Shown piece by piece: positions 22,089 through 32,348 of a DNA stretch of 39,703 bases. Position 1 is the first letter of the stretch, and each line of letters starts with the position of its first letter. The stretch is from an uncultured Actinomycetes bacterium (lineage in GTDB: Bacteria; Actinomycetota; Actinomycetes; Nanopelagicales; Nanopelagicaceae). The notes under the pieces were generated by a model, which was not told where the DNA came from, searched no databases, and saw only the letters and a program-made list of their open reading frames with translations. The stretch lies in contig CAINRG010000024.1 in the NCBI GenBank assembly GCA_903852585.1, positions 1-39,703 of the forward strand. Direction: 5' to 3'. A program made the position numbers and the translations under genes.

Positions 22089-22580
22089 GTGAAAAAGCGC
22101 GTGATTGCCAATCTTCTCATCGCAAAAGATGGCTCCACGACCTTTGCCGGGCGCTCTTCAGGTTTAAGTAGCCCTGAAGATCGAAGACGTTTTCACATCC
22201 TTCGAAGTAACGCTGACCTTATTCTCGTCGGCGGAAATACCGCACGAAATGAACCCTATGCCACAACTCCTTGCGAGCTTGTTGTGCTTACCCATGGGCA
22301 GTTGCCACGACAAATCGCCACTAATCCGCAAGCACGGGCCATTGCAACCTCTGTTGAAGAGTTTCTTCGTGGAGCCTCTGGTGAAATTCTCATTGAAGCT
22401 GGGCCATCACTGCTGCGAGAGGCGCTCGCCAAAAAGCTCGTGGACGAACTCTTCATCACCGTGACAGAAAGAGGCGGCGGAGAAAATATTGTTGATCTCG
22501 CCGATTTAACAAAAGGATATATCGAGTCTTCTCGTGAAGTAGTTGGAAATGAGATCTTCTTGCAATTTACTCCAATGTAG
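22089..22580 (+). CDS. RibD C-terminal-domain (DHFR-like) reductase
   Basis: A 163-residue protein, short for the family. VIANLLIAKDGSTTFAGRS at the start, LRSNADLILVGGNTARNEPY near 38-57, and ILIEAGPSLLREALAKKLVDELFITV near 100-125 match the RibD-C/dihydrofolate-reductase-like fold that binds NADPH. The deaminase half of RibD is absent. It may reduce a pterin- or riboflavin-type substrate; the actual substrate is unknown. GTG start, leaderless-type promoter. Its stop codon is the first unit of a 10-bp repeat array. Confidence 0.8.
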   Translation: MKKRVIANLLIAKDGSTTFAGRSSGLSSPEDRRRFHILRSNADLILVGGNTARNEPYATTPCELVVLTHGQLPRQIATNPQARAIATSVEEFLRGASGEILIEAGPSLLREALAKKLVDELFITVTERGGGENIVDLADLTKGYIESSREVVGNEIFLQFTPM

Positions 22581-22643
22581 TCGCAAGTAGTCGCAAGTAG
22601 TCGCAAGTAGTCCCAAGTAATCCCAAGTAATCCCAAGTACTCC
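22578..22643 (+). repeat. 10-bp tandem array, each unit beginning with a stop codon
   Basis: Units of ten bases start exactly at the RibD-C gene stop: TAGTCGCAAG three times, TAGTCCCAAG once, TAATCCCAAG twice, then a partial TACTCC. Stops fall at 22578, 22588, 22598, 22608, 22618 and 22628, cycling through all three reading frames twice. The array occupies most of the gap before the convergent DMT transporter gene. Confidence 0.9.
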
Positions 22644-22658
22644 AGCTAAGTAAAGAAG

Positions 22659-23498
22659 CTAGCTCAACGAAATCAGTGAAACCCCCGCAATAGCCATTGC
22701 AATTCCAAGATATTGAAGCTTGTGAAGTCGCTCATGTGCATACTTAAAAGCGAGCAACGTTGTCACAACGGGATAGAGCGAGGAGAGAACAACAGCGGAT
22801 GAAACGAGCCCCATGGTGGAAGCTTCGCCCAACGCAACATTTGCCAGAAAATCAGATGCGCCTCCGTACAAAAGAATTCCAGCGCTTGATTTTTCAAAAC
22901 CGCCCAGCGTCTTAAACCGCAAGGCAAGAACCACCATTACCAATACTGTCGAAAATCTCATTGTCACAGCTGTCATCAAAACATTTGATTGAGATCCGTG
23001 TGTCAGCAAAAGAACTGCGATTCCAAAACAGATGGCTGCAATAACAGCAAGAAGAATAGGTTTAGGACTCAAGCCGCCATTTATTTCGGGGCCAGATCCG
23101 AAGAATGCACCCAGTATGGCAATTGCCATACCCGTGAGTGCCATCGATGTTGGTCGCTCGCCGTGCACGATGGAATAGAGAACGGGAATTAAGACAGAAA
23201 GAGAGGTAATCGGAGAAACAACTCCCATGCGACCTGTCGCAAGCCCAGCAAAAAATGCATTTAAGCCAACAAATCCCACTAATCCCGCGCAGACACCTGG
23301 CAAGAAATATCCACTCCAGGAGAGAGAGGGTGCAATCCATGTTCGCGTTGCGAGCAGAAGAGAGATCCCAACAAAGAAACCAATGACCTGGCCGGCACCT
23401 GCCACAGCCACGACGTTGTGTTTCTTTGTGAGGTGCCCACCGATGTAATCACCACTTCCAAAGAGGAGACTGGAAAGAAGGGCTAAGAGTGAGCTCAT
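22659..23498 (-). CDS. EamA/DMT family transporter
   Basis: A 279-residue membrane protein with ten hydrophobic helices in two EamA halves; LLFGSGDYIGGHLTKKH near residue 10 marks the first helix and loop. It is probably a small-metabolite exporter; substrate not readable. The frame is open to 23588, but those 30 extra residues are hydrophilic and run past the divergent promoter. I start at ATG 23498, where a leaderless-type -10 box is correctly placed. It is not closely similar by eye to the DMT protein at 2344-3213. Confidence 0.83.
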   Translation of the reverse strand: MSSLLALLSSLLFGSGDYIGGHLTKKHNVVAVAGAGQVIGFFVGISLLLATRTWIAPSLSWSGYFLPGVCAGLVGFVGLNAFFAGLATGRMGVVSPITSLSVLIPVLYSIVHGERPTSMALTGMAIAILGAFFGSGPEINGGLSPKPILLAVIAAICFGIAVLLLTHGSQSNVLMTAVTMRFSTVLVMVVLALRFKTLGGFEKSSAGILLYGGASDFLANVALGEASTMGLVSSAVVLSSLYPVVTTLLAFKYAHERLHKLQYLGIAMAIAGVSLISLS

Positions 23499-23504
23499 AA
23501 GAAA

Positions 23505-23510
23505 AGGGTA
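23505..23510 (-). promoter_or_regulatory. -10 box of leaderless DMT transporter promoter
   Basis: TACCCT on the minus strand, then TTTCTT, then ATG at 23498. This supports the shorter start. Confidence 0.55.
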
Positions 23511-23554
23511 CCTTTCCTTGCTCGCGCCTAAGTCATTTATAGGTGTGCGCAATT

Positions 23555-23560
23555 TATTAT
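23555..23560 (+). promoter_or_regulatory. -10 box of leaderless DUF3000 promoter
   Basis: TATTAT, then TCATCA, then GTG at 23567. It decides the start against the longer frame from GTG 23543. Confidence 0.5.
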
Positions 23561-23566
23561 TCATCA

Positions 23567-24118
23567 GTGGCTGCGCAGCAAATCTCATTCGACCAAATCA
23601 TTGCAGAAATCCGCGCTATTACTCCACGGGCTGAAATAATTATTGACGAAGTTCCCGCCCCTCAAAAATTAGCCCCTTTTGCGATTGCACTCACCGCAGA
23701 TGTACTCGAAGATGCTGCCACAGGTAGATTTGTTCTTCTTCACGATCCCAAGGGACAAGAGGGATGGTCGGGTCAATATCGATGTGTAACTTTTGTTCGT
23801 GCTGCGATTGATCAATCGATGGCTGCCGATCCCATGCTGTCTGATGTTGGTTGGAGTTGGCTCGTTGAAGCCCTAAAAAAATATGATTGCCAATACGAAG
23901 CTCCAAGTGGCACCGTCACTCGTGTAGCTTCAGTCTCTTACGGCATGCTTGAAGGTCGCGATGAAGATTCTGAAATGGAGATTCGCGCTTCGTGGACACC
24001 TACATCTGGTTCTGGCATCGCACATCATGTTCGAGCATGGCTCGACCTTCTCGGTCTCTCTGCTGCTCTTGAGCCCATTCCAGATGGAGTTACTCAACTC
24101 ACTCCAAACCGACGTTAA
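23567..24118 (+). CDS. DUF3000 domain protein
   Basis: A 183-residue soluble protein of the actinobacterial DUF3000 family, recognised from FDQIIAEIRA at the start, the HDPKGQEGWSGQYRCVTFVRA core near residue 60, and VGWSWLVEALK near 95. The function is unknown. It sits 16 bases upstream of RNase D, the same pairing as mycobacterial Rv2680-Rv2681, so a link to RNA processing is plausible (inference). GTG 23567 is preferred over GTG 23543 because the -10 box fits it. Confidence 0.82.
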   Translation: MAAQQISFDQIIAEIRAITPRAEIIIDEVPAPQKLAPFAIALTADVLEDAATGRFVLLHDPKGQEGWSGQYRCVTFVRAAIDQSMAADPMLSDVGWSWLVEALKKYDCQYEAPSGTVTRVASVSYGMLEGRDEDSEMEIRASWTPTSGSGIAHHVRAWLDLLGLSAALEPIPDGVTQLTPNRR

Positions 24119-27565: not shown

Positions 27566-29667
27566 TGGTCAACATCACCAATCCCGACGAAGTTATTACA
27601 CAAGCACTACTTCGTGAAGTCGATCTCACTCCTTTTGGATTCAAGGGAAGTCTTGCTCTCATCACTCTTGATAACGGTATGGACCATACCCGCCCCAATA
27701 CATTTGGACCTTCCTCACTTGAAAAACTCAATGAGGCAATATCAGCTGCGCAGGCAAGTTCCGCTTCGGCTATCGCAATAACGGGAAAACCATTCATCTT
27801 TGCAGCAGGTGCTGATCTCTCCGCTCTTGCTATGTTGACTGAGCGGGAGCAAGCACTTGCAGTTGGAAAACTCGGACATGATGTTTTCCGTAGATTAGGT
27901 GAAAGTAAAAAACCTACATTTGCATTTATCAATGGGCTAGCCCTCGGTGGAGGTCTTGAAGTCGGGTTGCATTGCCACTTCCGAACTCTGGCAACAACGG
28001 CTTTCACTGGACTTCCCGAAGTATTTCTTGGACTTGTTCCTGGTTGGGGCGGTGCAACTATTTTGCCAAAGCTCATTGGTCCAAAAAATGCGGTACAAGT
28101 CATCATGATGAATGCGCTCAATAACAACACCATGATGAAATCCAAGGATGCCCTTTCCCTCGGTGTCGTGGATGCAGTCTTTGAGCCAGCTGATTTTCTT
28201 GAAAAATCCGTGGCTTTTGCCGCTCAGATTCTTTCTGGATCAAAGAAGATAGAGCGAACCGATCACACAAGCGATGATCAAGGGTGGAGCACGGCTCTTG
28301 CCACAGGAAAAGCTGCGATGGCAAAGAAATATGGCGGTGCAGAATTAGCTTCGCCCATGAAGGCGCTGGAGCTCATCTCCGCTTCACGCACAAATTCGCT
28401 CAGCGAAGGATTTGATGCTGAAGATCAGGCTCTTGCAGATCTCACCATGAGCGATTCGCTTCGAGCATCTCTCTACTCATTTAATCTCATTCAAAAAAAG
28501 CGCAAGAAAGTTGAAGGTGCTCCAAAACCTGCACTCGCGCGAAAAGTAACAAAAGTTGGAGTTGTCGGTGCCGGACTTATGGCTTCACAACTTGCTCTGA
28601 TTATTCTGCGAAATCTCAAAGTTCCTGTTGTAATCACAGATTTAGATCAAGAACGAGTTGATAAGGGGCTTTCCTACATTAATTCAGAGATCGCAAAACT
28701 CGTCGAGAAGCGACGCCTCACTCCAGAAGCAGCAGGTCGACTTTCATCTCTGATCAGCGGGTCCACTTCAAAAAGTGTGTACGCAGATTGCAATTTCGTC
28801 ATTGAAGCAATCTTTGAAGAACTTTCCTTAAAGCAAAAGCTTTTCGCCGAGCTTGAGGGGATTGTCTCTGAAGAATGCGTCTTGGCAACAAATACATCAT
28901 CTCTCTCTGTTGAGAAAATGTCGGAGGGACTCAAGCACCCTGAGCGCGTCATTGGTTTTCACTTCTTTAATCCAGTTGCCGTGATGCCTCTTCTTGAAGT
29001 TGCTCGCACGACAAAGAGTGATGATGCAACAACAGCGACAGCAATTTCCGTTGGTAAAGAACTCAAAAAAACTATGGTGATAGTCAAAGACGCTCCTGCA
29101 TTTGTTGTGAACCGCCTTTTGACGCGCTTTATGGGCGAGATTACTGATGCAATCGATGAAGGGACTCCGTGGGATGTGGCCGATGTGGCAATGAAGCCTC
29201 TCGGACTTCCCATGACATCCCTTGAGCTACTAGGGCTTGTAGGCCCAGGCGTTGCTCTCCATGTAGCTCAAACTCTTCACCACAATCTGGGTGATCGATA
29301 CCGAATTTCCCCAACGATGCAACGCTTTGTCGAGAAGGGTGTTCGCACTTTCTACATCAAGAGTGAAGATGGCAAAGTGGTTCCTAATCCTGAGGCACTC
29401 GCACTTCTTGAAAAGGGCACTACTCCATCCACAGCCGAGCAAGTTCGCCTTCGTGCACTCAAAGCTCTGGCAAGTGAGGCGCGTATGATGCTCGATGAGG
29501 GTGTTGTTTCAACCCCAGCAGAAATCGACATCTGCATGCTTCTTGGATCTGGATGGCCAATGCACCTCGGTGGAATTCTTCCCTACCTCGATCGCGAAGG
29601 AATTAGCGTTGAAGTAACCGGCAAGAATTTTCATCCCGCCGGTGTTGCTTCTCTTCCTGCTTCTTAA
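27565..29667 (+). CDS. fadB: FadB-type multifunctional enoyl-CoA hydratase/3-hydroxyacyl-CoA dehydrogenase
   Basis: A 700-residue protein from ATG 27565. Residues 1-230 are a crotonase domain with FAAGADLSAL near 85 and GGGLEVGLHCHFRT near 130. Residues 325-510 are the NAD-binding dehydrogenase domain with KVGVVGAGLMASQLAL near 330 and the catalytic His in GFHFFNPVAVMPLLEV near 468. Two C-terminal dehydrogenase repeats follow. It hydrates and oxidises acyl-CoAs for the thiolase. The frame is open to 27490 but that part lies inside fadA. Its TAA opens the 10-bp stop array shared with aconitase. Confidence 0.92.
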   Translation: MVNITNPDEVITQALLREVDLTPFGFKGSLALITLDNGMDHTRPNTFGPSSLEKLNEAISAAQASSASAIAITGKPFIFAAGADLSALAMLTEREQALAVGKLGHDVFRRLGESKKPTFAFINGLALGGGLEVGLHCHFRTLATTAFTGLPEVFLGLVPGWGGATILPKLIGPKNAVQVIMMNALNNNTMMKSKDALSLGVVDAVFEPADFLEKSVAFAAQILSGSKKIERTDHTSDDQGWSTALATGKAAMAKKYGGAELASPMKALELISASRTNSLSEGFDAEDQALADLTMSDSLRASLYSFNLIQKKRKKVEGAPKPALARKVTKVGVVGAGLMASQLALIILRNLKVPVVITDLDQERVDKGLSYINSEIAKLVEKRRLTPEAAGRLSSLISGSTSKSVYADCNFVIEAIFEELSLKQKLFAELEGIVSEECVLATNTSSLSVEKMSEGLKHPERVIGFHFFNPVAVMPLLEVARTTKSDDATTATAISVGKELKKTMVIVKDAPAFVVNRLLTRFMGEITDAIDEGTPWDVADVAMKPLGLPMTSLELLGLVGPGVALHVAQTLHHNLGDRYRISPTMQRFVEKGVRTFYIKSEDGKVVPNPEALALLEKGTTPSTAEQVRLRALKALASEARMMLDEGVVSTPAEIDICMLLGSGWPMHLGGILPYLDREGISVEVTGKNFHPAGVASLPAS

Positions 29668-29697
29668 AGTTCTTTAAATTTCCTTAAAGTTTCTTAA
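29664..29697. repeat. Bidirectional 10-bp TTAA array between two convergent stops
   Basis: TTAA occurs at 29664, 29674, 29684 and 29694, exactly ten bases apart, in units such as TAAAGTTCTT, TAAATTTCCT and TAAAGTTTCT. The first TTAA supplies the fadB stop (29665-29667) and the last the aconitase stop (complement of 29694-29696). As TTAA is its own complement, each unit gives TAA on both strands, covering all three frames in both directions. Confidence 0.85.
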
Positions 29698-32348
29698 AGC
29701 AGGTTTCGCAAGACATACTGCATGATTCCGCCGTGGCGATAGTAATCGGCTTCGCCCGGTGTATCGATTCGAACCCCTGCCATGAAGACCTTCTCACCTG
29801 CTGTGACGGTGACAACTTTTGGCGTCGAGCCGTTGTTAAGTTCTGTAATTCCAGAAATGGAAAATGTCTCTTCACCCGTCAATCCAAGTGAAGCAGCGTT
29901 TTGACCCTCGAGGAATTGCAATGGAAGAACGCCCATTCCAATCAAATTGGAGCGGTGGATACGTTCAAAGGATTCTGCAATAACAGCGCGAACCCCAAGA
30001 AGGGCTGTGCCCTTTGCGGCCCAGTCGCGAGATGAACCCGATCCATATTCCTTGCCTGCAAGAATTACGAGCGGAACGCCTTGTGCTTGGTAATTCATGG
30101 AAGCATCATAAATAGTTGCTTGCTCACCATTATTGAGAAAGTCTCGTGTAAATCCACCGGAAACTTCGTTGAGAAGAAGATTCTTCAATCGAATATTTGC
30201 AAATGTTCCGCGAATCATGACTTCGTGGTTTCCACGGCGGGAACCATAGGAATTGAAATCAATTCGCTCGATACCATGATCTGCAAGATACTTTCCTGCA
30301 GGTGAATCCGCCTTTATATTTCCGGCTGGGGAAATATGGTCAGTTGTAATTGAATCTCCGAGAACTGCAAGAACTCGTGCTCCCGAAATATCAACGACTG
30401 CCTTTGGCTGGCGAGGCATGCCATCAAAATATGGCGGCTTTCGGACATATGTCGATTGTGGATCCCACTCAAAAGTTTTACCTGTAGGTGTATCCAAAGA
30501 TTTCCAACGAAGATCGCCATCAAAGACAGTTGCGTAATCCTTTTTGAACATCTCAGATGAGATGGATGAAGCAATGACCGCTTCAATCTCTTCACTTGAT
30601 GGCCAGATATCCTTTAAAAAGACTTCGTTTCCGTTTTGATCCTGCCCGAGAGGATCACTCTCGAAATCATGATCCATCGAGCCCGCAATTGCATAGGCAA
30701 CAACGAGTGGTGGTGAAGCAAGATAATTCATCTTTACATCAGGGCTGATGCGGCCTTCAAAGTTTCTATTTCCAGAGAGAACGGCAGTGACAGCCAAATC
30801 ATTCTCATTAATGGCTTTGGAGACTTCAGCAGGAAGAGGTCCTGAGTTACCAATACAGGTGACGCAACCGTATCCAACAAGGTTGAAACCAAGCTGCTCC
30901 ATATATGTTGTAAGCCCTGCCTTGTCGTAATAATCGGTGACAACCTTTGAGCCAGGAGCAAGCGTTGTCTTTACCCAAGGTTGTGCCTTGAGCCCCTTTT
31001 CAACGGCTTTCTTTGCAAGAAGGGCCGCTCCAAGCATCACGGAAGGATTTGATGTATTTGTACACGAAGTAATGGATGCAATAACGACGGCACCATTCTT
31101 TACAGATGTAGGAGCACCTTTCACAGTAACTGTGACTGGGCTCTTATTTGTTTTTTCAGTGAAATACGTTGGAACGATTGCTTCATAAGAGGTCTTTGCT
31201 TTATCTAGGGAAATTCGATCTTGAGGGCGCTTAGGTCCTGAGATAGATGGAACAACTGTTGCAAGATCCAATTCGATATGTTCTGAGAAGCGTGGTTCAA
31301 TCGATGGGTCGTGCCACAATCCGTTGCGCTTTGCATACTTCTCGACAAGATCAATCTGCTCTTGTGAGCGGCCTGTAAGTTCGAGATAGCGAAGAGTTTC
31401 ATCATCAACCGGGAAGATGGCGCATGTTGATCCATATTCTGGAGACATGTTGCCAATTGCCGATCGGTTTGCCATCGGAAGTGCACCGACGCCAGCACCA
31501 TAAAATTCAACAAACTTTCCAACAACCCCATGCTTTCGGAGCATTTCGGTGATTGTGAGAACTAGGTCGGTAGCAGTCGTACCTGCAGGAAGTGAACCCT
31601 TTAATTTAAAACCCACAACGCGAGGAATGAGCATAGATACTGGCTGACCAAGTAGCGCAGCTTCAGCTTCGATTCCACCGACGCCCCATCCGAGTACACC
31701 AAGTCCATTGACCATGGTGGTGTGCGAATCAGTACCGACAACAGTGTCAGGGTATGCGCGGAGAACTCCATCAACAGTACGAGTCATGACAACGCGTGCG
31801 AGATATTCAATATTTACTTGGTGAACAATTCCAGTTCCTGGTGGGACAACTTTGAATTCATCAAAGGCTGTTTGACCCCAACGTAGGAAGCGGTAGCGCT
31901 CACGATTTCGCTGATATTCAATATCTGTATTTTCTTCAAAAGAACTCTTTGTTCCAAAGACATCGGCAATGACTGAGTGATCAATCACGAGCTCTGCTGG
32001 GGCAAGAGGATTTACTTTTGTTGGGTCTCCCCCAAGATCGGCGATTGCCTCACGCATTGTTGCAAGATCTACAACACATGGAACGCCGGTGAAATCCTGC
32101 ATAATCACTCGAGCAGGAGTGAATTGAATTTCTGTATCGGGCTCAACAGAAGGATCCCATTGGGCAATTGCCTTAATGGAAGCGGCGGTGATATTCGCTC
32201 CATCCTCAGTACGGAGAAGATTTTCGAGCAAGACTTTCAGGCTAAACGGGAGATCTTTAGAGCCCTCAATTCCGGTGATATCGAAGATTTCATACTTTTT
32301 TCCATGAACTTCGATGGAGGTCTTTGCGTTAAAAGAATTCTTGCTCAT
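29694..32348 (-). CDS. acnA: Aconitate hydratase A
   Basis: An 884-residue aconitase of the AcnA/IRP1 size class, isomerising citrate to isocitrate in the TCA cycle. The three 4Fe-4S cluster cysteines are in [10 protein letters not shown] near residue 429 and [12 protein letters not shown] near 495-498. [20 protein letters not shown] near 200 and the C-terminal swivel-domain segment [13 protein letters not shown] near 770 are further signatures. ATG start behind a leaderless-type -10 box. It faces fadB across the bidirectional stop array, so beta-oxidation and TCA genes are neighbours here. Confidence 0.95.

Follow-up and report, generated by a model that had tools for sequence, protein, structure and literature searches.

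A ten-base tandem array at the stop codon of a RibD_C gene is very probably a neutral expansion tolerated at a gene 3' end

The window analyzed here, a stretch of 39,703 nucleotides from an uncultured member of the Nanopelagicaceae, contains a ten-base tandem array that runs across the stop codon of a RibD_C-domain gene and repeats that stop in all three reading frames. Based on the current evidence, this array is very probably a neutral, lineage-specific tandem expansion of the slippage type, which favors lengths of about one helical turn, tolerated at the 3' end of the gene. It does not represent a dedicated element for stopping translation. The features at this locus are as follows.

22089..22580, + strand: RibD_C-domain gene (pyrimidine reductase family; Pfam PF01872, E=4.1e-13), with a TAG stop at 22578-22580.
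22568..22577, + strand: degenerate zeroth copy of the unit, TACTCCAATG, formed by the last ten coding bases of RibD_C and equal to TAGTCCCAAG at 7/10 positions, in register.
22578..22637, + strand: six decamers, TAGTCGCAAG three times, TAGTCCCAAG once and TAATCCCAAG twice, read from the sequence and with Tandem Repeats Finder.
22638..22643, + strand: closing partial copy, TACTCC, in which the stop is lost, read in the same way.
22659..23588, - strand: EamA-family transporter gene, convergent to RibD_C (Pfam PF00892, E=1.2e-21), with a TAG stop at 22659-22661.

The array lies in the 78-base gap between RibD_C and the convergent EamA gene. Its unit is TARTCSCAAG, and Tandem Repeats Finder delimits it to 22572-22643, with a period of 10, 7.1 copies and a 91% match. 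The decamers start at 22578, 22588 and 22598 (TAGTCGCAAG), at 22608 (TAGTCCCAAG) and at 22618 and 22628 (TAATCCCAAG), and their first triplet is TAG in four and TAA in two. The resulting stops, at +0, +10, +20, +30, +40 and +50, fall in frames 0, 1, 2, 0, 1 and 2, as an earlier note on this DNA had described when it reported six stop-initial units that pass twice through the frames. This cycling is automatic because 10 = 3x3+1. The same note placed the start of the array exactly at the RibD_C stop. The decamers do run from this TAG, but the degenerate copy TACTCCAATG already lies inside the coding sequence. In addition, the closing TACTCC is found exactly 70 bp 3' of an identical hexamer in the coding sequence. 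The array therefore reaches beyond the stop on either side, and its anchoring there is not strict. The array is real and not a product of chance, because 0.98 Mb of sequence simulated under a dinucleotide model contained none as strong when all periods from 4 through 30 were considered.

Further arrays were found in the genome to which the window belongs (G000). The scan covered 1.29 of its 1.35 Mb, with gene calls from a home-made caller and an array search without gaps, and it yielded 40 arrays, either outside coding sequence or out of frame, whose units measure 8-14 bp. Their unit length peaks at 10 bp (18 arrays), followed by 11 bp (8 arrays). Among non-coding arrays alone, there were 2 with units of 8 bp, 5 of 9 bp, 16 of 10 bp, 8 of 11 bp, 4 of 12 bp and 3 of 14 bp, and none with units of 5-7 bp rose above the threshold. 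The coding arrays included 26 of 9 bp and 17 of 12 bp vs 2 of 10 bp and none of 11 bp; the in-frame 9- and 12-bp arrays inside genes thus number 43 in about 1.18 Mb of coding sequence. Frame-breaking arrays have been purged from genes, and the coding spectrum is the non-coding spectrum filtered by frame. No array appeared in 0.98 Mb simulated under the dinucleotide model, at thresholds slightly stricter than those of the genome scan. The units themselves are unrelated, each locus having its own sequence. A core, TCGCAAGT, common to the window array and to L049:15207-15239 was considered; a rough estimate that allows for how many pairs of arrays there are attributes it to chance. Near-perfect long 9-bp arrays were also seen beside predicted gene 3' ends in this genome, at L049:9363-9454 (about 10 copies) and L101:10818-10896 (about 9 copies).

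The arrays are over-represented at gene stops, an enrichment for which the earlier note had proposed a check. Thirteen of 38 overlap a stop vs 3.29 expected from random placement in allowed positions (P=4e-5), and 19 lie between -13 and +8 bases from a stop vs 5.0 expected; the distance windows were picked after the array list had been viewed, which makes the P values somewhat optimistic, but the excess is large enough for its direction to be trusted. Gene starts, if anything, are avoided, with 1 overlapping array vs 4.7 expected. Convergent junctions carry 11 arrays vs 3.8 expected. Among the 165 convergent junctions in the genome, the two genes overlap or abut in 90, and the gap exceeds 20 bp in 43; an array is present in 10 of these 43, so that arrays contribute notably to new spacer DNA between convergent genes. 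In the alignments available for a few array-bearing genes, the stop of each close homologue is no more than a few residues from the stop that carries the array. For example, the C-terminus of the RibD_C protein, FTPM*, aligns with FTPLK* of a relative (L017). These stops are therefore older than the arrays, and the enrichment is unlikely to be an artefact in which repeat-borne stops truncate open reading frames.

The array is not conserved between species. While a single-sequence scan of genome contigs found no relatives, a profile scan found 80 related loci, labelled as uncultured actinobacteria, Nanopelagicales or Planktophila, in keeping with the lineage presumed in the earlier note. At 23 RibD_C loci taken from other genomes of the genus, the RibD_C stop is in no case followed by an array, and in the four nearest relatives with the convergent pair, RibD_C and EamA overlap or abut, without an array. 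The window holds a second array of the same period.

29664..29699, + strand: second 10-bp array, TTAAAGTTCT-like, 3.7 copies (Tandem Repeats Finder; flanking genes identified).

This array spans the interval from the TAA of a FadJ-like gene (29665-29667) to the TAA of a convergent aconitase gene (29694-29696). In most relatives with such a neighbourhood, dxs lies between these two genes, and it is absent here (29668-29693). No convincing dxs was found anywhere in this 99%-complete genome, where the best match covers part of the protein at 30% identity, and the junction is therefore itself new. The same junction also forms a hairpin, CCTGCTT...AAGCAGG (fold z=-3.2). Both window arrays are therefore lineage-specific at the level sampled.

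Within the genus, a scan for the pattern TARN7 x4 recovered genuine 10-bp arrays in about a dozen of 32 genomes and none in others. Scans of the same type gave fewer genuine arrays at periods 11, 8 and 7 than at 10, as judged by eye from the matched strings. In four genomes of the sister genus, the pattern scan returned only chance-like matches; class-wide counts of this kind have low power in GC-rich genomes. Unbiased scans for non-coding arrays of 10-11 bp found 24 per 108 kb of non-coding sequence in G000, 3 per 36 kb in G011 and 2 per 27 kb in G015. The 80 related-genome loci, drawn only from around RibD_C, gave 2 per 80 kb. As a separate observation, no NucS (PF01939) match was obtained in G000, and the only matches in the genus, in 7 of the 32 genomes, are weak and partial; these profile results suggest that this actinobacterial mismatch-repair enzyme was lost in the genus. 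Its loss explains little as a cause of the arrays, given that most genomes of the genus are without a NucS match, array-bearing or not. Nor is NucS expected to act on ten-base loops.

We infer that the preference for ten bases reflects slippage near one helical turn. A misalignment of about one turn during DNA synthesis would duplicate roughly ten bases, and repeated slippage would then add copies. Within genes, only in-frame units would be expected to survive. Where a unit covers the stop, the first copy would keep the protein intact and 5' regulatory sequence would be left undisturbed; for these reasons, expansions could persist at 3' ends and especially at convergent junctions. Later copies would inherit their stop by descent. 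The earlier note had offered helical-turn slippage tolerated after the stop as a neutral alternative, and this reading is favored by the length spectrum, the excess at 3' ends and the lack of stop enrichment in the units.

The main live alternative to slippage with tolerance is mutagenesis targeted to transcript ends, and the 3'-end excess could also be attributed to a mechanism tied to the ends of transcription, beyond tolerance alone. In its broader form, a genus-specific process would start tandem duplications of 10-11 bp preferentially at gene 3' ends, for example at sites of termination or of convergent polymerases, and would steadily make intergenic DNA in a streamlined genome. We regard such a process as unlikely. 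Somewhat less likely still is the narrower proposal that duplication starts at sites of termination or head-on collision of RNA polymerases, which would make the bias toward 3' ends and convergent junctions mutational and not selective. The excess at both kinds of site agrees with this proposal, but selective tolerance predicts an identical bias, and the 43 in-frame arrays inside genes argue that the process is not confined to gene ends.

The earlier note had pointed out that a ribosome which slipped or read through would be caught in any frame, and the corresponding hypothesis is an all-frame translational stop cassette selected at the RibD_C stop. If true, this would be a new translational safety device. 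The array stops do cycle through all frames, arrays are enriched at gene stops, and 31/36 later copies are still a stop. However, the tests do not support such selection. Stop-bearing units appeared enriched relative to random non-coding words (35/38 vs 24.9), an excess that was gone after each unit's own bases were shuffled (35/40 vs 32.4 expected, P=0.14). In arrays covering the primary stop, a small sample, later stop triplets are identical in 0.78 of cases vs 0.71 for other triplets. Overall, the arrays show neither the excess over composition nor the conservation above neighbouring triplets that would mark selected additional stop codons. Moreover, units of 9 and 12 bp, which cannot cycle frames, are not depleted near 3' ends (6/19 vs 3/19 elsewhere), and one 12-bp array at a 3' end, L237:3835-3888, never changes frame. 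Only 11 of the 165 convergent junctions have an array, and the array is absent in relatives. A systematic test in eubacteria likewise found no sign that additional stop codons are selected for (Ho and Hurst, 2019; PMC6764699). These tests argue against the device, and we consider it very improbable. Protein-binding sites in helical phase (iterons) and a transcription terminator can both practically be dismissed, for although a period near 10.5 bp sets units on one face of the helix, units of different loci have no sequence in common, arrays of 9 and 12 bp exist too, and the RibD_C array has no Rfam match, no terminator-like site at 22572-22660, as a GC-rich hairpin followed by a T run would mark, and an RNA fold barely better than that of shuffles (z=-0.78 for the + strand, and -1.20).

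With slippage-type expansion as the preferred reading, this genome offers a clean natural record of short tandem duplication, in which a non-coding peak at 10-11 bp stands beside its frame-filtered coding version. About half of its convergent gene pairs overlap or touch, and the arrays show how spacers can arise in so streamlined a genome. They also advise caution in reading an adaptation into repeated stops at gene ends. The principle of tandem stop-bearing units is not new, and the genus-level bias toward 10-11 bp is the modestly interesting remainder.

Three known systems resemble the array in part. The literature on additional or tandem stop codons treats in-frame stops as a fail-safe (Ho and Hurst, 2019). 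As there, extra stops follow the primary stop, but here they are by-products of a repeat. A closer parallel is the TAACTGA heptamer, whose direct repeats in Beggiatoaceae, Cyanobacteria and Bacteroidetes provide stops in all three frames, with 13 sets overlapping the stop codon of the upstream gene (PMC4679880). The earlier note knew of no described element of this kind, which these heptamer arrays show to be incorrect. Both have a 3n+1 unit that places stops in all frames, and both overlap upstream stops. In contrast, the TAACTGA repeats have the same sequence at each of their many loci, most of which lie a short way 5' of start codons, while the arrays described here have locus-specific units and a bias toward 3' ends; the unit and period of the RibD_C array differ from TAACTGA and 7. 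Finally, long simple sequence repeats with units of 5-11 nt (LSSR5-11) are, as summarized in PMC4679880 from Mrazek, Guo and Shah (2007), taxonomically scattered among prokaryotes, favor 3n units in coding sequence and are explained by slippage with a preferred length, heptamers being the most abundant class in most genomes. With its 7.1 copies of a 10-bp unit, longer than chance, the RibD_C array fits the definition of this class as given in that summary, and coding units in the genome are likewise mostly multiples of three. Compared with the class as summarized there, the arrays share the short tandem units and the 3n bias in coding sequence, and differ in that their mode is 10 and then 11 bp, not 7.
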